Origin: Magnetospirillum aberrantis SpK
Lineage (GTDB): Bacteria; Pseudomonadota; Alphaproteobacteria; Rhodospirillales; Magnetospirillaceae
DNA length: 64,000 nucleotides
Direction: 5' to 3'
NCBI RefSeq assembly: GCF_011022235.1
Contig: NZ_JAAIYP010000044.1
Span: forward strand, 62,001 to 126,000
Below the pieces are notes generated by a model, which saw only the letters and a program-made list of their open reading frames with translations, searched no databases and was not told where the DNA came from. Positions 33,915-63,594 of this stretch are shown here, piece after piece; within the stretch, counting starts at the first letter, position 1, and each line of letters opens with the position of its first letter. The position numbers and the translations under genes are program-made.

Positions 33915-33952
33915 ATGTCTTTGCAGCTATCAACGATGTCCACTTGACGCCA

Positions 33953-47216: not shown

Positions 47217-47238
47217 TTTCTGGATCGGTGTGGTGACG

Positions 47239-47270: not shown

Positions 47271-47299
47271 GTCGTCTCTACGCCCTGGGATTGTATTCC

Positions 47300-47341: not shown

Positions 47342-47360
47342 ATTGTTTGGAGGGTGAGAA

Positions 47361-47777
47361 ATGGGTGGTTTCGAGAGCGCGGCCATGGCTTTGGGGTCGA
47401 TGGTCGCCAACCAACAGCAGTCCCGTCAGGCGGCGAAGGCCCAGTCCGCGCAGATGGAGGCGCAAAACGCGCTGGTGGTGCAGCAACAGCAGATCAAGGC
47501 CAAGCAGCAGCGCGACCTTCTGTCCCGTCAGATGGCCTCGGCGCGGGCACGGCTTGCCGCTGGCGGCGTCGGTGTCGGCTCGGGTTCAGGGCAGGCGCTG
47601 CTGGCCGGCATGGTCAAGGACAGCGAAAGCCAACTGGCCGATTCCGATGCCTTGCTACAGGGCCGTCAGGCCGCGTCCTCCGCCGGTAACAGCAGTTCCG
47701 GCAGCGGGTTGCTGCAAGGTTTGAACACGGTGCAACAGGCCTGGAACGTCATCCAGCGTTTGCCGGGCGGCGGCTGA
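47361..47777 (+). CDS. phage-like coiled-coil protein (virion-internal/ejection-type), 138 aa
   Basis: Gln/Ala-rich helix (MVANQQQSRQAAKAQSAQM, VVQQQQIKAKQQRDLLSRQ), then a Gly/Ser linker around RLAAGGVGVGSGSGQ and another helix. The composition and the AAGGV...SGS pattern resemble small internal or ejection proteins of podovirus-like prophages; this is similarity of pattern, not a proven family match. GGAGGGTGAGAA precedes the ATG, and the promoter carries a LexA-type box. No other phage structural gene is nearby. Confidence 0.5.
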   Translation: MGGFESAAMALGSMVANQQQSRQAAKAQSAQMEAQNALVVQQQQIKAKQQRDLLSRQMASARARLAAGGVGVGSGSGQALLAGMVKDSESQLADSDALLQGRQAASSAGNSSSGSGLLQGLNTVQQAWNVIQRLPGGG

Positions 47778-47786
47778 GGGCTCTGG

Positions 47787-48185
47787 CTATCTTAGCGCGT
47801 TGTTGACCAGATAGGTGGCGATGTCGGCGGCCTTGGCCTTGGTCTTGGGCGGCTCCTTGCCGTCCAGCGCCAGGGCGATCAGCCGCGCGTTCTCTACCGA
47901 CACCAGGTTGACCTTGACGATGCCGACGGCCCCCCTGAGCTTGGGGTAGTAGTTGGGATCGACCAGCTTTTCCTTGCGGGTCAGCCGTGTCATCACCTCG
48001 TCCTCGCTCTGCTCGGTCTCGGCGGTCTTCAGAACCTTCCAATCATCGTAACCGGCCAAGCCGGCCACCGCTTCGTCGGGACCTTGGCCATCGGCCAGCC
48101 CGACCTTGAACAGGTTCTTGCCCAAGCCGACATCGGCGCCCCATTCCTGCATGGTCTTGCTGATGGCGACGTAAAGGATTGCCAT
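47787..48185 (-). CDS. hypothetical protein, 132 aa
   Basis: Soluble protein starting MAILYVAISKTMQEWGADVGLGKNLFK; no family recognised. ATG 48185 has CGGAG upstream. Convergent with the phage-like gene (9 bp between stops). It is the last gene before the TCGA-poor island and has core-like base composition. Confidence 0.55.
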   Translation of the reverse strand: MAILYVAISKTMQEWGADVGLGKNLFKVGLADGQGPDEAVAGLAGYDDWKVLKTAETEQSEDEVMTRLTRKEKLVDPNYYPKLRGAVGIVKVNLVSVENARLIALALDGKEPPKTKAKAADIATYLVNNALR

Positions 48186-48222
48186 TCTTCGCTCCGTTGA
48201 AACGGCGGTGTGCCGAAATGGG

Positions 48223-48255
48223 AAGGGGGCCGCCGGCAGAACCGGCGACCCCCTT
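48223..48255. terminator. strong hairpin, possible terminator
   Basis: AAGGGGG-c-CGCCGG (48223-48236) pairs with CCGGCG-a-CCCCCTT (48242-48255), one mismatch. It lies 38 bp upstream of the gene at 47787 and may have ended a transcript entering from the right before the island inserted (inference). Confidence 0.5.
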
Positions 48256-48541
48256 GAACCACGCACCAAGTGTCGATGACGCCGGATTAGCGCTTGGTGA
48301 AATGGTGGCTTTTAAAAAGTATTTAATATCAATGCCTTGCGATGGAATAAAAAGCAGCACAAGGTCAGCACAAGCATATTTTTTTGAGAACCGGGCGGTC
48401 CGCATTTTCTAACACGCACCACCAGAGGGGGCAAGAGGTCAACTCGCGCTCATTGAGTGAGGGCGATTGTTGGGAGAGGTGACCCGTGCGATTGTTGGCG
48501 TTAGGAGCCGCCAAGCGGCACCGCCGAACTTAGGAGGAACA

Positions 48542-48856
48542 ATGTACTTCACCGAAGAAATCCTGCAACAGGTCATCCTGTGGGCGATTCAGCGGACCTC
48601 GCTTTCGTTGGGGCTTATTTCTGAAGGGGACCAGTTTATTCCGGAGGATGCCTTTGAGCGCATCGCCCTGGCTAAGGGACACCGGGATGCATTGATGGAG
48701 TTTGTTGCTGCTTATGGAGCTTGGTACGCCTTCCATCTAGAGATTTACAAAGCGGAGAAGCAGGGCAAGCTAAATCCGGAAGAAAACAACCGCTTGATGG
48801 CGCTTATTCATCGTCGCGACAATGCCAAAAAGACCTTGTTGGATATTACTGATTAG
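48542..48856 (+). CDS. hypothetical protein, 104 aa
   Basis: Helical soluble protein of lower GC than core genes. A strong ribosome site (TTAGGAGG) precedes ATG 48542. No family recognised. Two 11-bp direct repeats GCGATTGTTGG (48463-48473 and 48488-48498) lie upstream and may be regulatory. Convergent with the recombinase gene (7 bp). Confidence 0.55.
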   Translation: MYFTEEILQQVILWAIQRTSLSLGLISEGDQFIPEDAFERIALAKGHRDALMEFVAAYGAWYAFHLEIYKAEKQGKLNPEENNRLMALIHRRDNAKKTLLDITD

Positions 48857-48863
48857 GCGTTGA

Positions 48864-49415
48864 TTAGTGGTCATCGGCCAGCGCCCGATAGACGCTGGCC
48901 CGACCGATCCCGAGAGTGCGAGCGATATCCGCAGGGCGCACGCCTTGGGCCTTCAGGGCGCGCACTTCCTCCGGTTTGATGGTCGGCCTGCGCCCCTTGT
49001 ATTTGCCTTCAGCCTTGGCTTTGGCGATGCCTTCCCGTTGTCTTTCCAGCATTACCTCGCGCTCCCACTGGGCGATGCCACCGAGCAAGGTCAGCATCAG
49101 GCGTCCGTTTGGCGTGCTGGTGTCCATCCCCATATTCTGGATGCGCAGGCCAACGCCTTTCTCCTCCAGGGTTTGCGTGATCTGAAGGAGGTGGGAGACC
49201 GAGCGGGCCAGCCGGTCAAGCTTGGTCACGATCAGCACGTCACCTTCGCGAACGAAATCCAGCGCAAGAGCAAGTTGCTCGCGGGCGACGACATCCACCG
49301 ACGACACTTGTTCGCAAAACAGCTTTTCGCAGCCTGCGGCCTTTAGGTCGCGCACTTGGGCTTCCAGGCCAGCTTGCTGGTCAATGGTGGAGGTGCGGGC
49401 GTATCCGACGAGCAT
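48864..49415 (-). CDS. serine recombinase (resolvase/invertase family)
   Basis: 183-aa site-specific recombinase of the Tn3-resolvase/DNA-invertase size class. Nucleophile Ser9 in GYARTSTIDQQ, the conserved LDRLARSVSHLLQ, NGRLMLTLLGGIAQWEREVMLERQREGI, the E-helix and a C-terminal helix-turn-helix (RPADIARTLGIGRASVYRAL). All core residues intact. Immediately upstream is an inverted pair of 15-bp repeats likely to be its own site. Confidence 0.92.
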   Translation of the reverse strand: MLVGYARTSTIDQQAGLEAQVRDLKAAGCEKLFCEQVSSVDVVAREQLALALDFVREGDVLIVTKLDRLARSVSHLLQITQTLEEKGVGLRIQNMGMDTSTPNGRLMLTLLGGIAQWEREVMLERQREGIAKAKAEGKYKGRRPTIKPEEVRALKAQGVRPADIARTLGIGRASVYRALADDH

Positions 49416-49419
49416 TTGT

Positions 49420-49502
49420 CCAAATCCGTCTCATTTACTTCTTTAAACGCTATCACGAATCCCTGTTTCGTCAATGAGACAACGTATATGAGACAGATTT
49501 GG
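49420..49502. other. candidate res/crossover site of the serine recombinase
   Basis: CCAAATCCGTCTCAT (49420-49434) and ATGAGACAGATTTGG (49488-49502) are inverted 15-bp repeats with one mismatch, 53 bp apart, just upstream of the recombinase start. A further ATGAGAC lies at 49474-49480. The layout resembles the inverted subsites of resolvase-binding regions. Confidence 0.6.
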
Positions 49503-49616
49503 CCGTCATAAGCGCCAGCGCCCAGTGATTCGCTGAACCACGGTCTTTTGAGACGCGTCCCTTAGGGCGCGACGTTGTGTGGGGTCGCCGCCTTCCAAGA
49601 ACGGGTGAGTTTCCCG

Positions 49617-50978
49617 CTAAAGTTCAAGAGTGTATTCTTGCCCAGCGGAAAGGCTGCTCAATAAGGTGAGTGCGTCTTCAGAATATTTGTGGTTAATGGT
49701 CGTCTTTCCGCTTTTCACGGCGATATGATAGCGGTTATCGCTTGCCTTGATGTCAACGCCAGTATCCTGCCGAAGCTGCTCAATCAGCTTGTGTGCGCAG
49801 TGCCAACCTTTCCCGCCCAGCTTTTCCCCAAGATTGGTTAGGAGATATGGGTACTTGGCATTGAGAGCAGATGGATTGTCCAGGGTCGTAATGCCGTAAA
49901 CCTTCGCCAGTTCATCGGTTGAACTGACTGCGTGCTCCAGCACCTTGAAATCCACCTCCAGCGCACGGCTAGGAAGGTCGTGGCGAACAAGTTCATAGGT
50001 GCGCGCCATCAATGACCTGAGGATTTTAGGATTTACTTTGATTGCCGCTTCATCTGCGGCAAATGCGTCAAACACCCACTGGAATGAGGATGCGCAAATG
50101 CTTTTGACGCGCACACTTCTATCGCCCCCAACTGAAATCAGCTTTTCCCTGGCAGGGTATGCCTCTGTGATTTTTTCCTGCCATTCAACCAGATAGATGT
50201 TGGGTATAAGCTCTCCATTTGGACAAAGTATCTCGTCAATGTCAGACAGAATGGCTTTTATATTTTCATCGTTGGCACTGTAGCCGACAAAAAGCAAAGG
50301 GTGTTCGGCGAAGAAGGCAAGAAGCTTTGCGCTCAAATATTTCTTTTTGTTTTGAAACTCAACGTAGTCAGATGTGGTGAGGACAAGGCTGGCGTGATCC
50401 GAAACGCATCCGTGGATTTTGAAAATCTCTCCCACCGAAGCATATTGATGGCGAAGTATTTTCTGACCAATGACTGGGGCGTAGTCGCTGAAAACCGCTT
50501 CCGAAAAGCTGTCAAAGTTGGTCGTGATAACGGCGTGCGGGCGAATCGCTTGCAGAGCCGCCAACTCCGCCCGAAGGGCCGGGTCTTTCACTTGGTCGGC
50601 AGACTTGGGGGTGATGCTGGCTAAGTGTTCGCAGACCTTAAACTTTAAGTAAGCGTCTGCCCTGGTCTCGGGAGTAAACATTGAGTTCGGGAACAATGCC
50701 TGACCACTTCCCCAAGCCCATTCACGGTAGGAGTCCGCAAAAGTTTCACCGATATCGCTGTAGCTTTTGAACGCTTGTTTAAAATAGGCGAATGGCTTCC
50801 CAATGACCGGGCATTGTTCGGCCATCTTCTGCAAAAGCTCTTCCCAACTTGGCCCACCAAAGTAACGCCGGGAAAGACCGGAGCCGACAAAAAGGATTGG
50901 CTGGCACCCCATATTTTCTATGCAAGCTGCAACATCATCCTTGCAGTCGGCAATGTAAGATTCGTAGTCCTTCGCCAT
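49617..50978 (-). CDS. SIR2-like domain protein, candidate anti-phage effector
   Basis: 453 aa. An N-terminal SIR2-like NAD-binding fold: GSGLS (32-36), ITTNFD (151-156), catalytic-type His189 in KIHGC, and FVGYSAND (about 230). No zinc-Cys motifs, so it is the defence type that typically hydrolyses NAD+ rather than a deacetylase. The C-terminal about 170 aa (PYLLTNLGEKLG...HKLIEQLRQDTGVDIK...NRYHIAVKSG) is unrecognised and looks winged-helix-like. It is divergent from hsdR (140 bp). ATG 50978 chosen from the start of the fold. Noticeably lower GC than the neighbouring hsd genes. Confidence 0.85.
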   Translation of the reverse strand: MAKDYESYIADCKDDVAACIENMGCQPILFVGSGLSRRYFGGPSWEELLQKMAEQCPVIGKPFAYFKQAFKSYSDIGETFADSYREWAWGSGQALFPNSMFTPETRADAYLKFKVCEHLASITPKSADQVKDPALRAELAALQAIRPHAVITTNFDSFSEAVFSDYAPVIGQKILRHQYASVGEIFKIHGCVSDHASLVLTTSDYVEFQNKKKYLSAKLLAFFAEHPLLFVGYSANDENIKAILSDIDEILCPNGELIPNIYLVEWQEKITEAYPAREKLISVGGDRSVRVKSICASSFQWVFDAFAADEAAIKVNPKILRSLMARTYELVRHDLPSRALEVDFKVLEHAVSSTDELAKVYGITTLDNPSALNAKYPYLLTNLGEKLGGKGWHCAHKLIEQLRQDTGVDIKASDNRYHIAVKSGKTTINHKYSEDALTLLSSLSAGQEYTLEL

Positions 50979-51118
50979 CCCCCGATCCCCCGAAAAGTTC
51001 ACCTCGTGGGTCGCCAAGCGTGCGCGCCCTGGTGCTTTAACTACCTAACACAGCATCTCGCGGTTGTCGCCCCGATGTCGCCTCGGTAGACTGTTGAAGT
51101 CGCTGGGGGAGTCGCGTG

Positions 51119-53260
51119 ATGTCGGCCAATGAGGCGTTTAGTCGCGTAAAGATTGACGCGCAGTTACGGGATGTCGGCTGGAGCCTGTCGGACGGGAAGA
51201 GCGTCCGATACGAGTATGTCCTTCCCGATAAGACCAAGGCCGACTATGTGCTGTGTAACCGGCACGGTCATTCCTTGGCGGTCGTGGAGGCCAAAAAGGC
51301 GTCCATCAATCCCGTTGAGGCCGAGGGGCAGGCCCTGGCCTATGCCAAGCAGCTTGGCGTCCCCTTCATCTTCCTGGCGAACGGCGAGGAGGTGTGGTTC
51401 TGGGAGTGGGAGAAGGAAGCCCATCCCCGCAAGGTCGCCACCTTCTCCTCCCAGGCCGATCTTGAGCGCGCCGAAGCCCTGCGAAAGCTCCGTGTTGACC
51501 CGATGACGGTGGCGATTGACGCCAAGATCGCCGGGCGCGACTACCAGAAAGCCTGCATCAACGCGCTCTGCCAGGAGATCAACCTGGGCCGCCGCAAGAT
51601 GCTGGTCTCAATGGCGACTGGCACTGGCAAAACCAGAACCGCTGCCGCCTTCATCAAGCGACTGTTTGAAGCCAATGTGGTCAGCCGGGTGTTGTTCCTG
51701 GTGGACCGCATCACCCTCGCGAAGCAGGCCGAGGACGCCTTCGCGGAATACCTCCCCGATTACCCCGCCTATGTGCTGCGCGGTGGCCGCCGCTTCCAGG
51801 ATGAGAAGCGTATCACCATCTCCACCCTTCAGACCTTCATCGGCGAATACGCCAAGCTCCCCGCATCGTATTTCCAGCTTGTCGTCGTGGACGAGTGCCA
51901 CCGGAGCATTTACGGCAAGTGGTCGGGCACCCTGCGGCACTTTGATGGTATCCAGGTTGGCCTCACCGCCACGCCTTGCGTGATGAAGGATGCCGATGAT
52001 CTGCCCGATCCCGAGGACGGCCAGTTCATTCGCGACACCCTCAAGTTTTTTGAGGTTAAGGAGCCGACGTTCACATATTCGCTGAAACAGGCCATCCAGG
52101 AGGGCAACCTCCTCCCCTACCACATCTACCGCGCACTGACGGTCAAGACCGCCGCCGAGGGCGGGTTTGAAGTGAAGCGGGACGAGCTTGATTGGTCGGC
52201 GATGGACGAGGCCACGAAGGCCGAGTTTGAGGCCCTGTTCAATGGTGCGGATTCCATCGTCGTGGACCCGTCAGCCCTGGAGCGGAAGTTCACTATCCCG
52301 GAGCGCAACCGCGCCATCGTGCGCGAGTTTCGTCAGGTCTTGGAGAAGGGCTTCACCGGCAAAGACGGCGTGAAGCGCGCACCCCTTTGGGGCAAGACCA
52401 TCGTGTTCGCTGTCACGAAGAAGCACGCCGAGACCCTGGCCCATATGTTTGACCAGGAGTTCGCCGACAAGAAGCCGTCTCCCCAGACCCGCTATGCGGA
52501 TTTCGTTGTGTCGGGCTTGGGCGAAGACGACACCGTGGACGGCTTCACGAAAATCAAGCGTTTCAAGGACGAGGAGTTTCCCAAGGTCCTGGTCTCGGTG
52601 AATATGCTGGACACCGGCTTTGACGCCCCCGAGGTGGTCAATCTGGTGATGGCCCGCTTCACCAAGTCCACCATCCTCTATCAGCAGATGCGCGGGCGCG
52701 GCACCCGGCAGGCCCCGCACATCAAGAAGTCCGCGTTCACGATGTTTGACTTCGTGGGCGTGACCGACTTCCACGGCGACGACGAGGATGCAGGTGAGGG
52801 CGGATTCGTCATTCCGTCCAAGCCCCGCGACCCGACCGCGCAACCCCGTAAACTGCTCACCCTGGACATCTATGACCACATTGACCCGTCCACCCGCGAA
52901 TGGTTCACCGTTGACGAGGACGGCAACCTGATTCGCACCGACGAGCAGGAGGCCAAAGCCACCGAGTTGGGCCTGCTGTTTGAGGCGTGGCTGGTCGGGC
53001 GCTCGTTTGACACCGAGCAGATGCGCTGGCTGCGGATGATTGAGAGCCAAATCCGCGCCAACGCGGGTGAGATGGAGGAGTTCCAAGCCTACCATTTCAC
53101 TATGCCGCCCTTTTCCCTCAATGGCGGCTACCAGCGGGCGCGACAGGTGTTCGGCGGCGATGACGCCCTGAACGAGATGCTTGCCAGCCTGAACGCCGCC
53201 GTGTTTCCTGCCGCTCCCGGCGGCGACGGCCCCGCCCCTGAACAGCCTTCGGCGCATTGA
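51119..53260 (+). CDS. hsdR: type I restriction enzyme R subunit (HsdR)
   Basis: 713-aa motor-nuclease subunit. HSDR_N nuclease core: Asp42 in ADYVL and the catalytic EAKK (57-60). SF2 helicase: Walker A TGTGKT (167-172), DECH (258-261), LTATP, and motif VI QMRGRGTRQ. An EcoEI_R_C-like C-terminal domain completes it; this subgroup is shorter than EcoKI HsdR. ATG 51119 follows GGGGAGTCGCGTG. First gene of hsdR-hsdM-hsdS, 14 bp before hsdM. Confidence 0.95.
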   Translation: MSANEAFSRVKIDAQLRDVGWSLSDGKSVRYEYVLPDKTKADYVLCNRHGHSLAVVEAKKASINPVEAEGQALAYAKQLGVPFIFLANGEEVWFWEWEKEAHPRKVATFSSQADLERAEALRKLRVDPMTVAIDAKIAGRDYQKACINALCQEINLGRRKMLVSMATGTGKTRTAAAFIKRLFEANVVSRVLFLVDRITLAKQAEDAFAEYLPDYPAYVLRGGRRFQDEKRITISTLQTFIGEYAKLPASYFQLVVVDECHRSIYGKWSGTLRHFDGIQVGLTATPCVMKDADDLPDPEDGQFIRDTLKFFEVKEPTFTYSLKQAIQEGNLLPYHIYRALTVKTAAEGGFEVKRDELDWSAMDEATKAEFEALFNGADSIVVDPSALERKFTIPERNRAIVREFRQVLEKGFTGKDGVKRAPLWGKTIVFAVTKKHAETLAHMFDQEFADKKPSPQTRYADFVVSGLGEDDTVDGFTKIKRFKDEEFPKVLVSVNMLDTGFDAPEVVNLVMARFTKSTILYQQMRGRGTRQAPHIKKSAFTMFDFVGVTDFHGDDEDAGEGGFVIPSKPRDPTAQPRKLLTLDIYDHIDPSTREWFTVDEDGNLIRTDEQEAKATELGLLFEAWLVGRSFDTEQMRWLRMIESQIRANAGEMEEFQAYHFTMPPFSLNGGYQRARQVFGGDDALNEMLASLNAAVFPAAPGGDGPAPEQPSAH

Positions 53261-53274
53261 GATAGGATCAGACG

Positions 53275-54891
53275 ATGCCCCTTACCCCCGACCTTCGGCG
53301 CGGCATTGATGAAATCCGCAACTACCTCTATGGCGGCGGCTTCCCGGACCCGCTGAACAACGCTGAACAGCTTTCGTTCTTCTTCTTCTTCTATCTCGTG
53401 GAAGGGATGGACGCCGACAACCTGATGCGGGCAAGGGCGACCAAGCGCGACTACACCTCAATGTTCGCGGGTGAGTGGGCCATCAAGAATCCCCTCAATG
53501 CTCCTGGACAGGCCAAGGTGCCCGCCGAGCGGATGAAGTGGTCACAGTGGAATGTGATGGCCGGTGAAACCCTGGTGCGGTGGGTTCGCGACGAGGTGTT
53601 TCCATTCTTCACCGATGTGGCCGAGCGGTCGGCGATGAACTTTATGACCGGCGCGCGACTGGGCATTGATGAGCCGACCGTGCTCACCCAGGTGGTCGGC
53701 CTGATTGATAAGCTGCGGCTGGACGAGGCCGATGCCGACACCAAGGGCGACCTGTTTGAATATGTGCTGAAGCAGGTCAAGCAGGCCGGTGAACTGGGCC
53801 AGTTCCGCACCCCGCGCCACATCATCCGCGCCATCGTTGAGATGGTGGACCCCAGGGTAACGGAGACCATCTACGACCCGGCTGCGGGCACGGCGGGCTT
53901 CCTGGTGGCTGCCTACAATCACATCCGGCTCGCCAACTCCTCCCCTGCGGGCATCTTTGAGGCAGAACTGGACGGCAAGATGGTGAAGCGTGGCTGGGGC
54001 GACAAGCTCTCGGCGGCGATGACCAACAAGCTCTCCAATGCCACGTTCTATGGCAACGACGTTGACCCCAAGATGGTCCGCCTTGCCACGATGAACCTGA
54101 CCCTGCGCGGGCTGCCCAATGTCCAAATCCTCAAGCGCAATGCGCTGACGACCACGATGGAGCGCACAGAGAAGGCCGAGCTTGGCCTTCCGTTGGACGG
54201 CTACGATGTGGTGCTGGCGAATCCGCCGTTCTCGGGCAAGCTGGACAAGGACCGGGTGGTGGACGATGTGAAGGTGGGCGCCTCCACCGCCACCGAAATC
54301 CTCTTCCTCAAGTATATGCTGAACTCGCTGAAGGAAGGCGGGCGCTGCGGCGTGGTCGTGCCCGAGGGCGTGCTGTTCGGCAGCACCGGAGCGCACAAGG
54401 AACTGCGCCGCCAACTGGTGGAGAACAACACCGTGGAGGCGGTGATGAGCCTGCCCGGCGGCGTCTTCCAGCCCTATTCGGGCGTGAAGACCTCCGTGCT
54501 TCTGTTCCGCAAGGGCGGCACCACCGACAAGGTGCTGTTCCTTCACGCCGACGCGGACGGCTACAAGCTGGACGCTAATCACGACACCCCGGTGGATGCC
54601 GACGACTTGCCGGTGCTGGTGGACGCCTATCAGCGCCGTGGCGATCTGTGGGGCGAATGGGAGGCACGCGACGAAAGCGCGGAATGGTCGGAGAAGTGGT
54701 GGTTCGCTGGCCTGGATGCCGTCCGCGCCGCCGACTTCAATCTCTCGGCGGGTCGGTATCGGCCTCAATCCCAGGCCCAGGTGGAGCACCGCGATCCGTT
54801 GGAACTGCTGGACGAGCTTCGCGCCATTGAAGGGGATATCCTGTCGGAACTGGACGCCCTGGCGGACAAGCTGCGGGAGCGGGTGGCTTGA
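53275..54891 (+). CDS. hsdM: type I modification methyltransferase (HsdM)
   Basis: 538-aa N6-adenine methyltransferase. HsdM_N helical domain (residues 1-140), SAM motif YDPAAGTAGFLV, and catalytic NPPF (ANPPFSGKL). It should protect the host from the linked HsdR. The stop overlaps the hsdS start (TGATG). Confidence 0.96.
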   Translation: MPLTPDLRRGIDEIRNYLYGGGFPDPLNNAEQLSFFFFFYLVEGMDADNLMRARATKRDYTSMFAGEWAIKNPLNAPGQAKVPAERMKWSQWNVMAGETLVRWVRDEVFPFFTDVAERSAMNFMTGARLGIDEPTVLTQVVGLIDKLRLDEADADTKGDLFEYVLKQVKQAGELGQFRTPRHIIRAIVEMVDPRVTETIYDPAAGTAGFLVAAYNHIRLANSSPAGIFEAELDGKMVKRGWGDKLSAAMTNKLSNATFYGNDVDPKMVRLATMNLTLRGLPNVQILKRNALTTTMERTEKAELGLPLDGYDVVLANPPFSGKLDKDRVVDDVKVGASTATEILFLKYMLNSLKEGGRCGVVVPEGVLFGSTGAHKELRRQLVENNTVEAVMSLPGGVFQPYSGVKTSVLLFRKGGTTDKVLFLHADADGYKLDANHDTPVDADDLPVLVDAYQRRGDLWGEWEARDESAEWSEKWWFAGLDAVRAADFNLSAGRYRPQSQAQVEHRDPLELLDELRAIEGDILSELDALADKLRERVA

Positions 54892-56093
54892 TGACTGCGA
54901 TCCAGCCGGTTGCGGTTGCCACGGTTCCCCTGCGGGAAGTGGCGACGATCTACAGCGGCGGAACCCCCAGCAAAGCAAACGCCTCGTTCTGGGTGGGCGA
55001 TATTCCCTGGGTTTCCCCGAAGGATATGGGCGAGGACCGCATTTCCGATGCCGAGGACCACATTTCAGCAGACGCGGTGGAGGGATCGGCGACGAAACTT
55101 GTCCCCACGGCCAGCATCCTGGTTGTGGTGCGTTCGGGTATTCTGGTCAGAAAGCTGCCCATCGGGTTAACCACTCGCCCGGTCGCCTTCAACCAAGACA
55201 TCAAGGCCCTGGTGGTTGACGAAACCAGGTTCTTGCCAGAGTTCATTTTCTGGCTCTTGCGCGCGGCGGAACCGCGTGCCCTGGTCGTGGGCGTCAAGAA
55301 GGGCGCGACCGTCCACAGTCTGTCTGCGGGCTACCTGGAAAGCATTCCCGTTCCGGTTCTGCCCTTGGACGAGCAGCGCCACATCGTGGACATCCTCAAT
55401 CACGCGGCCAGCATCCGGCGGCTGCGGGAGGAGGCACGGGCCAAGGCGCGCGACATCATCCCGGCGCTGTTCGTGGATATGTTCGGCGACCCGGCCACGA
55501 ACCCCAAGGGGTGGCCTGTCTCCAGATTGGACGCAGAGGTTAGTTTCGTCAGCGGAGCAACCCCCTCCAAGCAAGAGCCGCGATATTGGGCTGATGGTAC
55601 GCCCTGGGTTTCTGCCAAGGATATGAAAGCTGACCCAATCGTGGCCGCTGAAGACGAGGTTTCTGATGCGGCCTTTGCTGAAACGAACCTAAAACTGATA
55701 CCAGCCGGATCAGTCCTCATCGTGGTGCGGGGAATGATCCTTGCCCACACCATACCGATCCGTGTGAATGCGGTTCCGGTGGCGATCAACCAGGACCTCA
55801 AAGCGATGTTGCCGAAGCCGGGAATGAGCGAACAGTTCATCCGGTGGTGCCTTCAGTGCCTCCATAACCATCTGCTCGCGAAGATTTCCACTGCGGCGCA
55901 CGGCACCAAGAAGCTTGAGATGGATGTGCTAACGGCCTTACCTATCCCCGCCCCCCCTGTGCCTCTCCAGCAAGAGTTCGCCCAGCGCGTGGCCGAGGTG
56001 GAGGGCATTTCGTCCCTCAACGACCGCGCCACCACGGCAGCGGAACAGATGGCCCAATCGCTGTTAGCCCAGGTGTTCGGGCAGACCGCATAA
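54891..56093 (+). CDS. hsdS: type I specificity subunit (HsdS)
   Basis: 400 aa with two target-recognition domains, each opening with the same pattern: VATIYSGGTPSKANASFW at about 15 and VSFVSGATPSKQEPRYW at about 215. Each is followed by a helical spacer (LDEQRHIVDILNHAASIRRLREEA; PLQQEFAQRVAEVEGI). Both halves are intact, so it should read a bipartite DNA site; the sequence cannot be predicted. Translationally coupled to hsdM. Confidence 0.95.
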   Translation: MTAIQPVAVATVPLREVATIYSGGTPSKANASFWVGDIPWVSPKDMGEDRISDAEDHISADAVEGSATKLVPTASILVVVRSGILVRKLPIGLTTRPVAFNQDIKALVVDETRFLPEFIFWLLRAAEPRALVVGVKKGATVHSLSAGYLESIPVPVLPLDEQRHIVDILNHAASIRRLREEARAKARDIIPALFVDMFGDPATNPKGWPVSRLDAEVSFVSGATPSKQEPRYWADGTPWVSAKDMKADPIVAAEDEVSDAAFAETNLKLIPAGSVLIVVRGMILAHTIPIRVNAVPVAINQDLKAMLPKPGMSEQFIRWCLQCLHNHLLAKISTAAHGTKKLEMDVLTALPIPAPPVPLQQEFAQRVAEVEGISSLNDRATTAAEQMAQSLLAQVFGQTA

Positions 56094-56229
56094 CGTATTC
56101 TCCGTAGACACCCGAGGCGGCGATGACGGACCTGGACGCGGTGGAGATGACGGCGCGCCAATGGGTGGGGATTTGCGTCCAATCCGGGGCTGGCTGGCCG
56201 AAATGGTCCACCAAACCGCCTGATCGCCG

Positions 56230-56598
56230 TTACGGCTGGGATCGGCGGCTTTTGCGGCGCTGTTTGTCCAGCAGTCCGATCATCCCCGCCACCAACTCCA
56301 TTTCGTTGTCGGGCAGCCGTCTGGCGGCAGCCGCCACGATGGCGGCGTTCTGGGAATGGGGATCGGCTTCCGGCTGGTTGGACTTCACCATTTCTTCCAA
56401 TGGAACGCCCAGATGCCGGGCGAACTGATCCAGGGTGAGCAGACCAGGGATCGTCTTGCCACGCTCCATATTGGAGATGGTCTCAACGGCCTTGCCGGTC
56501 ATTTCCGCAAACTGCGCCTGCGTCAGCCCGCGCTCTTCGCGCAACTGCCGGATTCGACTCCCAATGCGTCTTCCAAGCTCCATTTCCATACCCCGCAT
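56230..56598 (-). CDS. XRE-family transcriptional regulator
   Basis: 122 aa. A Cro/CI-type HTH in residues about 10-65 (IRQLREERGLTQAQFAEMTGKAVETISNMERGKTIPGLLTL), then a short helical tail. Convergent to hsdS (136 bp apart). A CCCCGCA/TGCGGGG inverted repeat (56591-56611) covers the start codon and may be its operator or mRNA hairpin. The only TCGA of the island (56554-56557) is in this gene. The start could be ATG 56598 or 56589. Confidence 0.88.
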   Translation of the reverse strand: MRGMEMELGRRIGSRIRQLREERGLTQAQFAEMTGKAVETISNMERGKTIPGLLTLDQFARHLGVPLEEMVKSNQPEADPHSQNAAIVAAAARRLPDNEMELVAGMIGLLDKQRRKSRRSQP

Positions 56599-56724
56599 TC
56601 TCTGTGCGGGGCGTGTTGGAGCCTATTGACACAATCATACGGATTTTTACCTGAGCCTCATTGGGGCGTCAGAACCCCATTATCCCTTCATATCCACCGT
56701 AGAATGACGCAGATTGCCGGGCTG

Positions 56725-56747
56725 AACTTGATGTGATAGATCAAGTT
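56725..56747. promoter_or_regulatory. perfect 8-bp inverted repeat, candidate operator
   Basis: AACTTGAT (56725-56732) and ATCAAGTT (56740-56747), 7 bp apart, between the XRE gene and the gene at 56822. Flanked by an 11-bp direct repeat CTCATTGGGGC (56657-56667 and 56752-56762). Spacing does not fit an FNR box. Confidence 0.5.
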
Positions 56748-56821
56748 TGTGCTCATTGGGGCTGCCCAAGTGACTTGCTCACGCGGTCGGTGGGGCGGCA
56801 CGGCCTGTGGAGAGGGGAACG

Positions 56822-57442
56822 ATGAAGAACATACTGGCATTCCTGCTGCTGATGGGCGTGATCGCCCTTCTGGTCAAGTTTTCGGGGCAGATTGCCTTCG
56901 TGCTTGCCTTCGCACTGGTGATCTTCATCGGCTATCTCCAGAAAGGAAACGTCACCAACGAAAGACTGGTCAAGAATCGTAGGGGCTTTCAGGTAGGCGC
57001 GGGCATCGTCGCGGCTCTGCTCTTCGTCTTCAGCGCGAATATGAAGATTGAAGCTTCTAGAGAGAAGGAAGCTGCCGCTGTGGCGGAACAGCAAAAGCAG
57101 AGCGCGGACGCGGCCAAGAAGGAGGCCGAGCAGCAAGAGAAGTTGGTGAAGGCCAAGGAGATGGCGGCGAAATGGGGCATCACGCCCGAGCAGTATCTTG
57201 CCGCCGATGAAAGGAGCTATGCCGCTTGGGGCGCTTGCCAGCAGGAGGCGCGGAAGGCGGTTCCGGGATCACAAACTAACTGGACGCCCCAGTTCGGATG
57301 GACCACCTCGGATGGCAACGTGATTAAGATTCACGGCACGGACATCACTCTTGACCTGGGGCGCGGTCAGAAGCAGCCAGTCTATTACAACTGCGCCTAC
57401 ACCATCGCCACCGGCAAGGCCGAGATTGAAAGCGTCCAGTAA
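56822..57442 (+). CDS. membrane protein with coiled-coil and C-terminal domain, 206 aa
   Basis: Three hydrophobic segments (about 4-20, 23-41, 57-72), a charged Ala/Glu/Lys coiled coil (75-120), and a C-terminal domain with two Cys (GACQQEA, YYNCAYT). Topology uncertain; the last domain is probably outside the membrane. GGAGAGGGGAACG precedes the ATG. The next gene, encoding an exported protein, starts 10 bp later, so they form a pair. No family recognised. Confidence 0.65.
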   Translation: MKNILAFLLLMGVIALLVKFSGQIAFVLAFALVIFIGYLQKGNVTNERLVKNRRGFQVGAGIVAALLFVFSANMKIEASREKEAAAVAEQQKQSADAAKKEAEQQEKLVKAKEMAAKWGITPEQYLAADERSYAAWGACQQEARKAVPGSQTNWTPQFGWTTSDGNVIKIHGTDITLDLGRGQKQPVYYNCAYTIATGKAEIESVQ

Positions 57443-57452
57443 GGCTGGGACG

Positions 57453-57968
57453 ATGATCCGCTCCGCCGTTGCCGCGCTGCTTCTGGGCGCTCTGACGACT
57501 GCCCCATCCTCGGCGTTTGCCGATATGTATGGCTTTCCCAATGGGGGCTACACCCCGACGCCGGAACAGCGCGCCCAGCAGCAACGCGCCCTTGAGATGA
57601 AGCGGAAGGTGACGGAGTGCGACGGCCTGCGCCAACAGGTCGTCCGCACCGTCAATACCTGGGTCAATCAGGTCTATGCGAACAGCTACGATATGTCGGA
57701 CCAGGGCTGGGTCCAGCACAACAGCCGGGAAATCTTTATGAGGGATACCCGTGAGGAGATGGCGCGGTTCCAGGAGGCGATGCGACAACTGACCTATGGT
57801 GAGGTTGATGTGTCGGCCTGTCAGGCCACGGCAGCCCGCTATCGCGGCTACGTGGAGTGCTATTTCACCAACACGATGAACAACGAGCCGCGCAGGAATC
57901 GCTCGGATTGCGGCAGCGACCTGTATTCCACGTTCGTGAATCCCGACCTCTATTACCCACCCGATTGA
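57453..57968 (+). CDS. hypothetical exported protein, 171 aa
   Basis: Signal peptide (MIRSAVAALLLGALTTAPSSAFA) followed by a helical domain with four Cys (TECDGL, SACQAT, VECYF, SDCGSD) that could form disulfides in the periplasm. Ends in YYPPD. Follows the membrane-protein gene by 10 bp and likely acts with it. Function unknown. Confidence 0.65.
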   Translation: MIRSAVAALLLGALTTAPSSAFADMYGFPNGGYTPTPEQRAQQQRALEMKRKVTECDGLRQQVVRTVNTWVNQVYANSYDMSDQGWVQHNSREIFMRDTREEMARFQEAMRQLTYGEVDVSACQATAARYRGYVECYFTNTMNNEPRRNRSDCGSDLYSTFVNPDLYYPPD

Positions 57969-58992
57969 TCGGGCGGGAGTCTTCTTGGCATACAAATGGG
58001 CCTGTTCCGGCCCGTCATCGGCGCTACCGGGGTAGCATCGGGGTGATCGCGCGGGTTCCCCTCGCTCCAGTTCCTTCACCTACCCAATGGGAACCCCATA
58101 GGGGAAATGGTAACCCGGCTCCGTCGCACAAGCGTGAGCGCGAGCGAGCGCCAGCGACAAGGAGCCGGATGTTGCTGCTGGTGGCGAAGCCAGCAGCGGC
58201 AACGGGCGTCAGCCCTGACTCCACGCACAAGGAGCAGCAAGAAGTCCAAGGAGAGCAATAGGTCCAACAAGGGCTTGGTCTCGTGAAGCGGCTGTGCTGT
58301 CGCACATCCGGCGATTTTCGCTCGCTCTCGCTTGCGCTCGGCTGACGCTCAATCGCGGATTTCTTGAGATTTGCGTTTCTGATTGATAGCAGAGGTTTGC
58401 TGCGAATAGCTCAATCCCCCCCATTGATGAGACCGGGCATAAAGAGGCCAGCCAGGGGCCTCGCCTATCTCATCAATGAGGGGGATGTAAGCTGGAGGGT
58501 GTCTCTGATCTGACCCTTCGGCCTGCTGCTTGCTCGTCCTTTGGTTATTCACCCGGCTGGCGGTTATCCTGTACCAGCCGTGGGGACGGTCATCCGGTCT
58601 TGCGACCACAACGGTTGTGCTTGCGCACGCCACGCCACAGAGCAATCAAGCGTCTACCCTGCGGCGTGAATGGACAGACGCTATCTGCCCATTTCATTTG
58701 CTCCCCACCAGCAGTGGAGAGACCCCTTTCGCTGATGAACCATCAGCCCGGCGCTCGCAACCTCGGTATCCAATATGGGCCGATGAGGTCGGTATGTCTC
58801 CGGTCATTGCTCTACTCAACTACCATAATGGTGTCCGCCGTGCTCGGGCGGAATGGGGTGGAGGAACCCCGTCGCTGCTCCTGTAGAGTTTGGTAAAGGT
58901 ATTTATCACAGAGCCGCCAAAACACATCAAAATCGCCCCAAACAAGGCGATTCGCCCCTTCACGGATAAATATCCGAGAAAGGAGGTGTCCA
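57969..58992. other. 1-kb structured region without convincing genes
   Basis: No ORF here has a good ribosome site and sensible protein. Many strong inverted repeats are visible: CCGGCTCC/GGAGCCGG (58115-58122 with 58161-58168) continued by GTCGC/GCGAC; GCTGCTGG/CCAGCAGC (58174-58181 with 58190-58197); CATTGATGAGA/TCTCATCAATG (58422-58432 with 58468-58478) enclosing GAGGCC/GGCCTC; AATCGCC/GGCGATT (58931-58952); and CGGATA/TATCCG (58963-58976) just before the next gene. Candidate structured RNA(s), transfer or replication origin, or long regulatory leader. Confidence 0.55.
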
Positions 58993-59292
58993 ATGACACA
59001 AACTGTTGATCTTTATGACGCGCTCTACTGGTTCCTCGCCAGCCAGCGCATCTGCCAATCCAAGAGCGACTTCGCTCGTCGCTTCTTCAGGTGCTCCCCT
59101 GGTTACTGGCGTAACCGCGAAAGCGCCGAGACCAAGCCATCGCTCGCTGCCGCGATGCGCCTGCTGGGTGAACTGGAGAAGCTGGCTGAGACCACCCCAC
59201 TGGCTGATCCCACGACCGCCACTCTTAGGGAGTTCGTGGTCAAGGTTCGTGCCGACATCCAGGACCGCGTTGAGGGAGGTGCCCAATGTTGA
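58993..59292 (+). CDS. small HTH-like protein, DUF6626-like, 99 aa
   Basis: The pattern SKSDFARRFFRCSPGYWRNRES...KPSLAAAMRLLGELEKL suggests a small helix-turn-helix-like fold; the next gene encodes a divergent paralogue. Strong ribosome site AAAGGAGG before ATG 58993, 16 bp after a CGGATA/TATCCG dyad that may be autoregulatory. First of four overlapping genes. The DUF assignment is tentative. Confidence 0.65.
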   Translation: MTQTVDLYDALYWFLASQRICQSKSDFARRFFRCSPGYWRNRESAETKPSLAAAMRLLGELEKLAETTPLADPTTATLREFVVKVRADIQDRVEGGAQC

Positions 59293-59603
59293 GTTGGGAC
59301 GACCTGATGCGCGCCTGCCGTGCCACCAAGGTGGCCGAAACCCAAGAGCAGATGAGTGATCTGATGGGCAAGCGCCCATCCTATGTCCGTTCATTGAAAG
59401 CACGCGGCAAGCAGCCAAGCGTGGACTCAATGGCTCAACTCCATACCCGGCTGACGGAACTGGAGGACGAGTTCAGAGACCTGATCGTGTTCGGGTTTGA
59501 TGCCTCAGAGTCGCGGAAGGTCGCCCACCGGATGGTGGCCGAGTTTAGGGATGGTGTGTTCCGCGACATCACCGCCCGCTGCCGCAAGGGAGGCGCAAAA
59601 TGA
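59286..59603 (+). CDS. small HTH-like protein, paralogue of the preceding gene, 105 aa
   Basis: TQEQMSDLMGKRPSYVRSLKARGKQPSVDSMAQLHTRLTEL aligns in pattern with the upstream product (TQ/SK..FS...G..PSY...K....PS...L...L). GGGAGGTGCCCA precedes its ATG, which overlaps the upstream gene by 7 bp. Its stop overlaps the next start (ATGA). Predicted DNA-binding; partner or target unknown. Confidence 0.65.
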   Translation: MLSWDDLMRACRATKVAETQEQMSDLMGKRPSYVRSLKARGKQPSVDSMAQLHTRLTELEDEFRDLIVFGFDASESRKVAHRMVAEFRDGVFRDITARCRKGGAK

Positions 59604-60139
59604 ACGCCCCAAACATCCATCTTCTGCTGTGGGATGCCGAACGTGAAGAGAATCCAGATGACAGCGCCTATGCCCAGGCGACCGATGATGGACGAGTGCT
59701 GTTCCGGCAGCTTTGGGCCAAGAACAGCCTGTCGCCCAAGATGCTGATGGATGACCCGGCCACCGACGCCGACACGACGCTAGATGGGCTGATTCGGTTC
59801 CTGCGCCATAGCGTGGCGGTAGGATACGCGGTCCAGCCCATCATCGCCGATGATGACGCGCTCCTGACCCTCAAGCTCACCGCCGACGACGAACGGCTGA
59901 TGTTCTTTCCCCAACGGATCAAAGATTCACAACCGGCTCCGCTTGAAGATGCTGCCGCCGTGATGGTGGCTGCTGCCACCATCCAGGAGATTGAGGAGGC
60001 CGAGGCCCATCTGGTGGCCCTGTATGGCCGCCTCCATCATCTCTTTAGGATCGGTGATCGTGAGCAAATCTCTCGGCTTCGGGCCGCATTGGTCCATTGC
60101 TTCTCGGGCGGCGATTTCCCCCAGGATGGTGACCAATGA
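59600..60139 (+). CDS. hypothetical protein, 179 aa, in four-gene operon
   Basis: Acidic soluble protein; N-terminus MNAPNIHLLLWDAEREENPDD, a central FRQLWAKNSLSPKMLMDDP, and a helical C-terminus rich in Ala/Glu. No domain recognised. Four-base ATGA overlaps on both sides show translational coupling, so stoichiometric co-production with its neighbours is likely. Confidence 0.65.
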   Translation: MNAPNIHLLLWDAEREENPDDSAYAQATDDGRVLFRQLWAKNSLSPKMLMDDPATDADTTLDGLIRFLRHSVAVGYAVQPIIADDDALLTLKLTADDERLMFFPQRIKDSQPAPLEDAAAVMVAAATIQEIEEAEAHLVALYGRLHHLFRIGDREQISRLRAALVHCFSGGDFPQDGDQ

Positions 60140-60639
60140 TGCGCGTGGCCCTGGTCTCCGAGGAGATGGTTGTAGCCGACGATTCGGGCGTTTACCTCTC
60201 CATCCACGAGGGCACGCGTGAAGCCATAGAGGGCGATTGGCGCATCCCACCGACCATCACCGGCCTGATCCGCGACCGGTACGGCATCCATTTCAGGGCA
60301 GTGGGCCAGTTCCTGACCCACTACCTCGTCACCCAGGTCTGGGGCGTGGAAGGCCATCACCGACTGCTGCTGGTGGAACCGCAGGACGAAACCTTGCTGC
60401 TGCTCAGAAAAGACGAACTCACCTTCCTGTCCGAATGGCACACGACCGCAGACGAGTTCCGCAATCTGCTGGTCAGCAGCTTCCTCGCCCGAGAGGCAGA
60501 CGAAGCCGCCAAAATATGGTCCATTGCGACCCGGCGATTGGTGAAGATGGGCGAGATTGCCAATCCTGATGATGTTGAGTTGCGGCTGATGATGAGCCAG
60601 GAGCTTTATACCCGCACTTTACTGCCAGCCTGCCCTTGA
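60136..60639 (+). CDS. hypothetical protein, 167 aa, last gene of four-gene operon
   Basis: Soluble mixed alpha/beta protein (VYLSIHEGTREAIEGDWRIPPTITGLIRDRYGIHF, LLLVEPQDETLLLLRKDELTFL). No domain recognised. Its ATG overlaps the upstream stop (ATGA). Confidence 0.65.
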   Translation: MMRVALVSEEMVVADDSGVYLSIHEGTREAIEGDWRIPPTITGLIRDRYGIHFRAVGQFLTHYLVTQVWGVEGHHRLLLVEPQDETLLLLRKDELTFLSEWHTTADEFRNLLVSSFLAREADEAAKIWSIATRRLVKMGEIANPDDVELRLMMSQELYTRTLLPACP

Positions 60640-60690
60640 CAGATACAGGAGGGTGATACGATGGAAGGCTAACATTTCTGAGGCCCCATC

Positions 60691-61131
60691 GTGCTTTCCT
60701 CGCTCAACTTCACCGACGAACACCGCCCTGCCGATGCCGCCGATACGCCCATCCTCAAGGCTCGCGCTGCCGTCCTCAAAGGCATCCAGAATCAGCGGCT
60801 ATTCATCCAGGCCGCCCGCAGCGGCCAGCCCATCAATCTGACCAAGACCATCACCGGCAAGGACGGCGGCGAGCGCGTCCAGCGCCTGCGCCCCCGTAAG
60901 TGGTATTGGCGCTCCCCGCAGGGACATATCTGCTTGGAGGTGTTCTACGGCCACCGTGCCCTGCCGCTCCACGACGGCAAGACGGTGGTGGCGTGCCCCA
61001 ATCTGGACGCTCTGGAGGCTGCTCTGATAGTCATTGCCGAATCGGTGATGGCTGGGGAACTTGATGCCGCCCTGGGCGCGGCCCAGGCCACCGATAAGCG
61101 CCTGCGGGGTGGAGTCCACTCAGTCCGTTAA
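60691..61131 (+). CDS. hypothetical protein, 146 aa
   Basis: GTG start at 60691 with TGAGG upstream. Basic N-terminal half (KARAAVLKGIQNQRLFIQAARSGQPINLTK, VQRLRPRKWYWRSPQGH) suggests nucleic-acid binding; C-terminal half helical. A TTGACA at 60636 may begin its promoter. The 3' end overlaps the convergent integrase gene by 12 bp. Possibly an excisionase-like or regulatory partner of the integrase by position only. Confidence 0.55.
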   Translation: MLSSLNFTDEHRPADAADTPILKARAAVLKGIQNQRLFIQAARSGQPINLTKTITGKDGGERVQRLRPRKWYWRSPQGHICLEVFYGHRALPLHDGKTVVACPNLDALEAALIVIAESVMAGELDAALGAAQATDKRLRGGVHSVR

Positions 61132-62424
61132 CAGGAAATCCATATCCACGACCTTTTCACCGGTGGGCAGGACAGTTTGTCGCGTTAGTTCCGCCGCATC
61201 GTCAATGGTGACGTTGGATTTATTCAGTGTTTCTGCGTTCTGGATGTTGCGGGTGTGGTCGTAGTGTTTCTCAATGTAGGAAACTGATGTGCCCATATTC
61301 TTCGCCAGTTTGTCCACTGGTACGCCTGCCAGGAGGCGCTCCGTTGCATAGGTGTGGCGGAACGAGTAGAGGGTCCTGGTGCGGCCAAAGCTGTCGCGTG
61401 CGACCCCTGCATCTTTCAGCATCGCTTTGAGAGTTTTATAGCCCCATTCGGGGGCATTTCCGTCCTTGCCGATGATGACCAAATCCTTGCCGTCCATCGG
61501 CTTTCCGGTCAGCTCGTGCAACTCCTCAAGGTGCGTCAGGACTTGCGGCATCACGACGCAGGTGCGTTCGCCGGTCTTGGTGGTCGGTGCGATGTGAAAG
61601 GTAATCACATTGCCCTTGTGGTGGGTTATGTCGCACCAGCGCAGTTGGAAAAGTTCGTTTGGACGCAATCCAGAATAATAACAGATCATTACCGCGTGTC
61701 CCATTAGCGCGCGGTAATATTTGTGCAGGCCGTTCTTGCCCTTGGATGGCCAATCTTCCAGGAAAGCAATAAGGGTTGCCATATCGTCGGGGGTGAAGTG
61801 CTGGCGGCGCGTGGTGGACGCCTTTTCTACGCCCTTTTTGGAGCGACTTTTTGTGATCGTGGTCACGGGGAGAGTGACCATCCACCCCTTGCGCTTGAAC
61901 CATTTGAAGGCTTGGTTCAGCAAGCTCTTGTCCATCTTCAATGTGGCGGTGGCGGGCGATATCGCCGCATTCGGCACATTGGCCAGTTCGTCTTTGCCGG
62001 GGCTTTTTGTCCAATAGCTGCGCCGCCAATCCCAATAATCCTCAACCTTGGCATCCGTGATGGTCACAAGGTCCATTTCGCCGAAGAACCCAACGAAATA
62101 GCGTTTTCCAATACTGTTATGAAGCCGTTGGCGATGCTCGCTCAGGCAAGTTGCACCCTCTTTCAGCCACAGCTCAAAGGCGTCCTTGAACCTGCGCTCC
62201 TTGATGGGGAGGTTGTTCCTGACCTTTACCTTCATCTCGGTAAAAAGGTTGTCTGCCCAACTCACGGCTTCGGCAAGGTTGGTGGTGCCGCTGGATTTGA
62301 GCGTGTAGCCGTTCACGCCGGGGAGGCGGAAGCGGGCGTTCCAGATGGGCTTTTTCTTGTCGCCATCAATGTAAAGGAGAACGCGCCCGTCGTGGAGTTC
62401 GTGCCTTTCAACATATCTCACCAT
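61120..62424 (-). CDS. tyrosine recombinase/integrase
   Basis: 434 aa, complete. N-terminal arm-binding and SAM-like core-binding domains, then the catalytic domain: Arg254 in SGLRPNEL, the beta-hairpin Lys around TKTGERT, Arg356 in YSFRHTYAT, and nucleophile Tyr388 in EKHYDHT. Likely the enzyme that inserted the island. It lies next to rpsI; GCATAAG repeats at 62501-62584 upstream could be its arm sites. Confidence 0.93.
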   Translation of the reverse strand: MVRYVERHELHDGRVLLYIDGDKKKPIWNARFRLPGVNGYTLKSSGTTNLAEAVSWADNLFTEMKVKVRNNLPIKERRFKDAFELWLKEGATCLSEHRQRLHNSIGKRYFVGFFGEMDLVTITDAKVEDYWDWRRSYWTKSPGKDELANVPNAAISPATATLKMDKSLLNQAFKWFKRKGWMVTLPVTTITKSRSKKGVEKASTTRRQHFTPDDMATLIAFLEDWPSKGKNGLHKYYRALMGHAVMICYYSGLRPNELFQLRWCDITHHKGNVITFHIAPTTKTGERTCVVMPQVLTHLEELHELTGKPMDGKDLVIIGKDGNAPEWGYKTLKAMLKDAGVARDSFGRTRTLYSFRHTYATERLLAGVPVDKLAKNMGTSVSYIEKHYDHTRNIQNAETLNKSNVTIDDAAELTRQTVLPTGEKVVDMDFLLTD

Positions 62425-62588
62425 CGCGCATCCCCCTCTCTGCTCGGTGGCCTGTTCGCGTGGTGTTCAGGGGAGTTCGCTCCCCCCGTTGTCAGCATCA
62501 GGCATAAGGAACCGCATATATTGGTGAACTGGAAGATGAGGGGCGTCAAGGGGCTGGAATAGGCAGCATAAGCCCGGCATAAGGCAAG

Positions 62589-62618
62589 GAAAAAGGGCTT
62601 GGATTGCTCCAAGCCCTT
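62589..62618 (-). terminator. terminator of the rplM-rpsI operon
   Basis: 11-bp stem AAGGGCTTGGA/TCCAAGCCCTT (62593-62603 with 62608-62618), TTGC loop, minus-strand T-run. Confidence 0.85.
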
Positions 62619-62658
62619 GATCTCTTGCCAGTTTTTCGCTGACAGGCAGTTCGGAAGC

Positions 62659-63129
62659 TTAACGCTTCGAGAACTGGGTGGAACGACGGGCCTTGTGCTT
62701 GCCGTACTTCTTGCGCTCGACCACGCGGGGATCGCGGGTGAGGAAGCCGCCGGCCTTCAGCGCCGGGCGGGTCGCCGGGTCGAAGAAGGTCAGCGCGCGG
62801 CTGATGCCGTGGCGCAGGGCGCCGGCCTGACCGGACAGGCCACCACCGGCGACGGTGGCGACGATGTCGAACTGACCCTCGACGCGGGCGGTCTGGAACG
62901 GCTGGTTGATCAGCATGCGCAGCACCGGACGGGCGAAGTACTGGGTGACGTCGCGGCCGTTGACGGTGATCTTGCCCGAACCGGGCTTGACCCACACGCG
63001 GGCGACGGCGTTCTTGCGCTTGCCGGTGGCATACGAGCGGCCCTGGGCATCGACCTTACGCTCATGCACGGGCTGGTCAGCCTGCGGAGCGGCGGCCTTG
63101 AGATCGGCCAGGCTGGAGAGATCGGCCAT
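62659..63129 (-). CDS. rpsI: 30S ribosomal protein S9
   Basis: 156 aa. An alphaproteobacterial N-terminal extension (about 28 aa) precedes the conserved [29 protein letters not shown] and the C-terminal decoding-centre tail ending QFSKR. Downstream partner of rplM (6-bp gap), as in nearly all bacteria. The island begins right after its terminator. Confidence 0.98.
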
Positions 63130-63135
63130 CTGGGC

Positions 63136-63594
63136 TTACCTCTTGTTCTTGGGGTTCATCGAGGCGACGTCGACCACGGTCGGGTTCTGCGCCTCGTGCG
63201 GGTGGCTGGGGCCGGCGTAAACGCGCAGATTCTTCATCTGGGCGCGGCCAAGCGGACCACGGGTGATCATGCGCTCGACGGCCTTGATGATGACGCGCTC
63301 GGGGAAACGGCCGCTCAGCAACTGGCCCATGGTGCGGCCCTTGATGCCGCCCGGGTGGCCGGTATGCCAATAGAAGGTCTTATCCGCCAGCTTGTTGCCG
63401 GTCAGCTTGACCTTCTCGGCGTTGACGACAATCACGTTGTCGCCCATGTCCATGTGCGGGGTGAAGGTGGGCAGGTGCTTGCCACGCAGGCGCATCGCGA
63501 TGATGCTGGCGAGGCGGCCCAGAACGACGCCGTCCGCGTCGATCACAACCCACTTCTTCTCAATTTCGGACGGTTTGACGTTATAGGTCTTCAT
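63136..63594 (-). CDS. rplM: 50S ribosomal protein L13
   Basis: 152 aa, complete: [71 protein letters not shown] and the C-terminal [19 protein letters not shown] 63594 gives the canonical length; upstream in-frame ATGs are not conserved. Confidence 0.98.

Follow-up and report, generated by a model that had tools for sequence, protein, structure and literature searches.

We examined a 64,000-nucleotide stretch of the Magnetospirillum aberrantis SpK genome (contig NZ_JAAIYP010000044.1, positions 62,001 to 126,000 of the forward strand), hereafter the window, to which all coordinates without a locus name refer. Within it lies a 14,372-bp integrative element (48287–62658) inserted in the 3′ end of rpsI, and this element is at the same time a desert in which the tetranucleotides TCGA, CATG and AATT are almost entirely missing. 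The right attachment (att) repeat at 62659–62677 is the rpsI 3′ end, and the left repeat at 48287–48305, with the core TTAGCGCTT, is a relic of such an end, agreeing with the right repeat at 15 of 19 bases and recognised by comparison with the rpsI ends of other genomes. The first-pass annotation of this DNA had proposed that a TCGA desert marks the limits of an island, and the positions of the two repeats bear this out. In 11 rpsI loci from congeneric genomes, the DNA found left of the island adjoins the rpsI end in six (L046-L048 and L052-L054), lies apart from rpsI in L055, and has no match in four. With a tyrosine integrase, flanking att repeats and empty sites in relatives, the locus has the features of a site-specific integrative element.

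The element begins with a gene for a 129-amino-acid protein of no recognised family (48467–48856, forward strand), in a part not common to the near-copy described below, followed on the reverse strand by a serine resolvase (48864–49415; PF00239, 1.1e-41) and a SIR2-domain protein that is a candidate defence protein, its best model being PDC-S25 (49617–51017; PF13289; PADLOC, 3.1e-80). A type I restriction-modification (R-M) system, identified with Pfam and PADLOC, occupies the forward strand with its restriction subunit HsdR (51116–53260), methyltransferase HsdM (53275–54891) and specificity subunit HsdS (54888–56093). A helix-turn-helix regulator on the reverse strand (56230–56598; PF01381) contains the sole TCGA of the element (56554–56557). 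The next seven genes are all on the forward strand. They encode a 211-amino-acid protein with a hydrophobic N-terminal part and weak family matches only (56807–57442), for which a tape-measure match (3.2e-4) was judged weak and discounted; a 205-amino-acid protein related to proteins encoded within or next to the CATG-free elements of G128 (51%) and G192 (37%) (57351–57968); a DUF6626-like protein with a match under the gathering score (58993–59292); a DUF6626 protein common to related islands (59286–59603); a 179-amino-acid backbone protein of no family (59600–60139); a 167-amino-acid backbone protein that, of the 317 genomes searched in the order, occurs in its own and one other (60136–60639); and a 146-amino-acid protein (61131 being the end of its gene, which starts at 60691) that belongs to phrog_31551, matches DUF6641 weakly and recurs in elements with related integrases. 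The tyrosine integrase (61120–62424, reverse strand; PF00589, 1.2e-12; phrog_1) closes the gene set, and a terminator-like hairpin read directly from the DNA at 62585–62620 lies downstream of rpsI; the rpsI of G192 has a similar hairpin.

Pfam scans of 15 island proteins and a PHROGs comparison of 10 showed no recognisable phage structural, replication, relaxase or type IV secretion system (T4SS) gene, and they revealed none of the VapE/primase, packaging or capsid-remodelling genes of P4 and phage-inducible chromosomal island (PICI) satellites. Relaxase or conjugation genes of integrative and conjugative or integrative and mobilizable elements were likewise not found among the 15 proteins, oriT not having been searched for. 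Searching plasmids by tblastn returned only distant integrases (six records, <60% identity). The single integrase sequence matched no genome contigs or viral contigs as a query, although an integrase alignment did match, and the 146-amino-acid protein found no match in viral contigs.

The first-pass annotation described a TCGA desert with flanking copies at 48273 and 62667, one copy between them at 56554 and seven copies in the first 1.34 kb of the window, and every one of these positions and counts proved exact. The outer copy at 48273 belongs to downstream host DNA and that at 62667 to the rpsI end itself. Against a maximal-order Markov model applied to 48277–62666, TCGA occurs once where 52.1 copies are expected. 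CATG and AATT, which the first-pass annotation had missed, are even emptier across the same element, with no copies against 62.8 and 29.3 expected, in gaps that run from 48150 to 62914 and from 46722 to 63562, respectively. These three are the only tetranucleotides with two or fewer copies in the island, so that depletion equal to that of TCGA, which the annotation had named as a finding that would speak against its claim, extends to two other palindromes and no further. Five hundred synonymous-codon shuffles of 15 island genes gave on average 54.1 TCGA, 36.9 CATG and 22.8 AATT, with minima of 40, 25 and 12. The effect on codons that had been predicted was also seen: in 14 island genes, TTC, ATC, GTC and CTC never precede GAN, whereas TTT, ATT, GTT and CTT do so 17, 17, 15 and 9 times, and CAT is never followed by G. 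The depletion reaches noncoding DNA as well, as claimed, since the 2,144 noncoding bp of the island contain none of the three words. By both the Markov and the shuffle measure, these words thus fall far under composition-corrected expectation, as in restriction-site avoidance.

Other palindromes were affected to different degrees. GATC, said earlier to remain, is indeed still present but reduced by about half (45 of 87.6 expected), and TGCA is missing from 52789–61345, where 26 copies are expected. ACGT, GTAC and CTAG are also lowered, and TTAA, GTAC, TATA and ACGT stand at 0.28 to 0.46 of the synonymous-shuffle expectation. GCGC, AGCT and ATAT lie near expectation (Markov ratios of 0.92, 0.92 and 1.13; shuffle ratios of 1.07, 0.91 and 1.37), and the ratios for CATG, AATT and TCGA are 0 to 0.02. 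Among the 64 six-base palindromes, 46 are missing from the island against 10.9 expected, and summed over all of them there are 57 copies against 251 expected, a ratio of 0.23 compared to 0.65 to 0.78 in three flanking host stretches. Elsewhere in the window, six-base palindromes are also scarce at 29001–33000 (29 versus 76 expected), beside a GC dip at 32001–34000 and near tRNA-Gln (29668–29741) and tRNA-Glu (35749–35824) genes; this is possibly a second island, without a tetranucleotide desert.

A near-copy of the element is present in G122, a genome of the same genus, which carries 48874–61107 at 97.8% identity. The copy has a different tyrosine integrase (PF00589 and DUF6538) and sits at the start of purB, the gene for adenylosuccinate lyase, between repeats at L031 2863 and 17241. 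Its 14,378 bp contain one TCGA, at the site common to both copies, and neither CATG nor AATT. The unshared ends of both copies, including the two integrase modules, lack all three words, indicating persistence of the purge through exchange of modules between the rpsI and purB sites. Only 2 positions differ between 49821–59640 of the window and L031, with 52 differences (5.5%) to the left of this segment and 216 (14.7%) to the right; a near-identical middle between diverged flanks points to a recent exchange of defence cargo between backbones that had diverged. Across the 269 substitutions that separate the copies, no new TCGA, CATG or AATT arose. When the same substitutions were placed at random in 2000 trials, a mean of 13.4 (base-matched) or 15.4 (context-matched) new sites arose, with minima of 2 and 6. 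Because the actual substitutions created no new copy, the purge was kept up while the two copies diverged.

We then turned to related elements, which the first-pass annotation had suggested comparing. All 256 tetranucleotides were scanned for empty stretches, defined as stretches with no copy observed and an expected number, from a local second-order model, above a given threshold. In 33 sequences (797 kb) chosen by homology to the integrase or to DUF6626, with host flanks and with the window and G122 included, 17 of 528 palindromic sequence-word pairs had an empty stretch at >20 expected, versus none of the 7920 other pairs. The window and its near-copy account for 8 of these 17. At >15 expected, the counts were 22 palindromic versus 1 other (GGCG in L039). 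In 69 further loci (1.07 Mb), obtained after 10 of 79 were left out as repeats of loci analysed earlier, 14 of 1104 palindromic pairs (11 loci) and 3 of 16,560 others (2 loci) were empty at >20 expected, and 7 versus 0 at >30. The three exceptions, GGCT (twice) and AGCC, are all parts of RGCY. Viral contigs with related integrases, of which 1 of 40 (L214, the same prophage as G191) was left out, gave 18 of 624 palindromic versus 1 of 9360 other pairs at >20 expected. The avoided words are therefore of restriction-site type, palindromes or degenerate palindromes, with weaker nonpalindromic exceptions.

The emptiness was confined largely to the element side of the integrase. In the 48 of the 69 loci in which the integrase starts at 10001 and the length is at least 11 kb (21 were left out), empty stretches at >12 expected numbered one palindromic and one nonpalindromic on the host side (446,400 bp) and 20 palindromic and 3 nonpalindromic on the element side (407,098 bp). 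In most loci with a stretch at >15, the desert starts ∼230 to 490 bp outside the integrase match; it starts inside the match in L172, in L196 and, for GGCC, in L174.

The near-copy shares the same triple desert, and some other related elements have lost palindromes of their own, namely CATG, GCGC, GGCC, CGCG or TGCA, and in one case exactly RGCY. CATG is missing from the rpsI element of G192 (0 versus 54 expected) and from an element of G128 (0 versus 51), and GCGC from one island of G120 (0 versus 83). Genomes G191 and G192 are Novispirillum itersonii, G140 is Paramagnetospirillum marisnigri SP-1 and G133 is P. caucaseum SO-1. The 14,106-bp element of G140, which encodes VapE-like and Prim-Pol proteins, lacks GGCC (0 versus 60) and CGCG (0 versus 35), and the P2-like prophage of G191 (L033 and L060; strain ATCC 12639) lacks TGCA (0 versus 101) over ∼29.7 kb. 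In L197 (Sphingomonadales UBA7471), none of the four RGCY words occurs in the 9,148 bp of 9721–18869, beside an integrase and a resolvase, and AGCA and TGCT are retained, with longest gaps of 1,896 and 1,294 bp. This set of gaps exactly matches the form of a degenerate recognition site, and RGCY is the site of CviJI. L168 lacks RGCY over 6,182 bp and GGCC over the 11.4 kb covered. Another triple purge was seen in L174, from a Sphingomonadaceae metagenome-assembled genome, which is without GGCC, CGCG and CCGG over ∼9 to 11 kb. Like the window island, some other purged islands (L137, L168 and G120) carry type I R-M genes. A uniform size, which could have been a signature of packaging, was considered for the elements of the window, G122, G140 and G192 (the last ∼13,697 bp) and rejected, as it is contradicted by the GCGC-free desert of G120 (∼20.2 kb) and the CATG-free desert of G128 (∼12.7 kb).

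A second island of G120 is GGCC-free except for one block (18293–20807 of L097+L098), which Pfam identifies as an IS66 element with transposase and Orf2. This block of 2,515 bp contains 43 GGCC and is 99.96% identical to a second genomic copy that borders the GCGC-free island. Since an IS66 element with 43 GGCC persists inside a GGCC-free island, DNA gained after landing has not been purged by chromosomal residence.

Taken together, these data suggest that the desert is the imprint of type II restriction, acquired as the element repeatedly entered new cells and copies bearing sites were cut; we put the probability of this reading at about 0.85. The near-restriction of the losses to palindromes, their extent over whole elements and up to element limits, their upkeep under substitution, and the differing word sets, including a degenerate one, are what would be expected of type II restriction. 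In such a process, the 14.4-kb defence element would repeatedly enter cells as double-stranded DNA, or become double-stranded there, resident type II enzymes would cut the copies that carry their sites, and only copies devoid of TCGA, CATG and AATT and poor in 6-bp palindromes would survive. The agents would be type II R-M enzymes that earlier hosts carried. The first-pass annotation had likewise favoured restriction in former hosts, and restriction is the best-supported cause; its direction at TCGA alone did not hold, since CATG, AATT and most six-base palindromes were purged together. From the phage-grade purge and the satellite-like element of G140, we infer that the element probably travels in a phage-like or satellite-like manner. 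More tentatively, and with the odds somewhat against so broad a view, alphaproteobacterial defence islands may move like virulent phages, probably packaged, with the missing words of each purged island recording the type II specificities it has met, degenerate RGCY among them.

Several observations weigh against type II restriction as the cause or against its generality. The searches made brought up no enzyme specific for TCGA, CATG or AATT. The TaqI-like enzyme proposed earlier was not found in the hosts: RE_TaqI (PF09573) was present in 0 of 317 genomes of the order (and in 0 of 55), with a positive Thermus control, in a search that did not cover other families of TCGA cutters. D12 methyltransferases occurred in 4 of 8 genomes, the window's own not among them. 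C5 methyltransferases occurred in 19 of 19 genomes; comparison of three of them with solved structures gave no assignable specificity, the similarity to M.HaeIII, M.HhaI and DNMT1 being generic and outside a recognisable target-recognition region. No recognised phage structural, relaxase or T4SS gene accounts for movement of the element. As many as 54 of the 69 independent loci, many of them partial, have no palindromic empty stretch at >15 expected, and neither do L035 (a 9.5-kb rpsI element), L036, L041 and L064-L066. Long nonpalindromic gaps also exist at lower levels, for GGCG in L039, TGCG in L196, and CAGG, AGCG and CCAG in viral contigs. Finally, a study of plasmids (Shaw 2023, PMC10359461) reports that these avoid 6-bp targets and that 4-bp palindromes do not differ between plasmid and core genes.

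The alternative that survives best, although we consider it improbable, is that a sequence-specific nuclease encoded by a phage or helper element, rather than host R-M, cut word-bearing DNA and the island escaped by losing the words. The same eliminations in viral contigs with related integrases would fit this, and RGCY, CATG, TGCA and GTAC are all specificities of chlorella-virus enzymes. However, no such nuclease turned up among the island proteins in general scans, which used no nuclease-specific model, and the variation of word sets between elements would require many different nucleases. Much less probable is that palindromes or hairpins are avoided across the board, for instance during single-stranded transfer, with no specific enzyme involved. 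The overall shortage of six-base palindromes and the partial lowering of TTAA, GTAC, TATA and ACGT speak for it, but the selectivity contradicts it, with GCGC, AGCT and ATAT near expectation in the very DNA that has lost CATG, AATT and TCGA, and other elements retain these three words and lose different palindromes. We regard as very unlikely a codon, compositional or mutational bias brought from a foreign donor; the island does have a lower GC content than the host (0.585 versus 0.646), yet shuffles that keep codon composition produce 23 to 54 copies on average, the noncoding DNA is empty too, and substitutions create no words. Exclusion of TCGA alone by a TaqI-like system would explain the TCGA count but is refuted as the sole cause by the equal purging of CATG and AATT, besides the absence of RE_TaqI from the 317 genomes, and is given an equally negligible chance.

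The principle of purging by type II restriction is already known; its degree here and its carrier are new. Rusinov 2018 (PMC6286503) reports that roughly one in ten viral genomes has lost sites completely or nearly so, and that extreme elimination is less common among temperate phages. The loss of orthodox type II sites from mobile DNA is alike in the two cases, but there the carriers are viral genomes, and here three 4-bp words are lost together from a defence island in the chromosome in which no phage genes were recognised. According to the plasmid study noted above, avoidance of 6-bp palindromes in mobile DNA is shared with plasmids; unlike their 4-bp words, which are not more avoided than in core genes, those of the window island are fully gone. 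P4 and PICI satellites (PMC9122126) resemble these elements in combining an integrase with variable defence cargo, and the VapE-like and Prim-Pol proteins of the G140 element extend the likeness, whereas no primase, VapE, packaging or capsid gene was recognised in the window island. A 2025 review (PMC12707154) mentions phages and small or conjugative plasmids. We found no report of complete 4-bp purging in integrated islands in the literature covered, most subscription journals being outside that coverage.

These results mean that integrated defence islands, beyond phages and plasmids, can lose 4-bp restriction sites completely. As a marker, the purge sharply and simply shows where an element ends and that it has moved recently, and from the purged words earlier encounters with restriction may be read. 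It also opens to testing the way in which elements without visible transfer genes move. A number of related mobile blocks have each lost a set of words of their own, so that the islands appear to record the DNA-cutting defences that their ancestors outlived. If this is true, R-M specificities would be inferable from island sequence alone.

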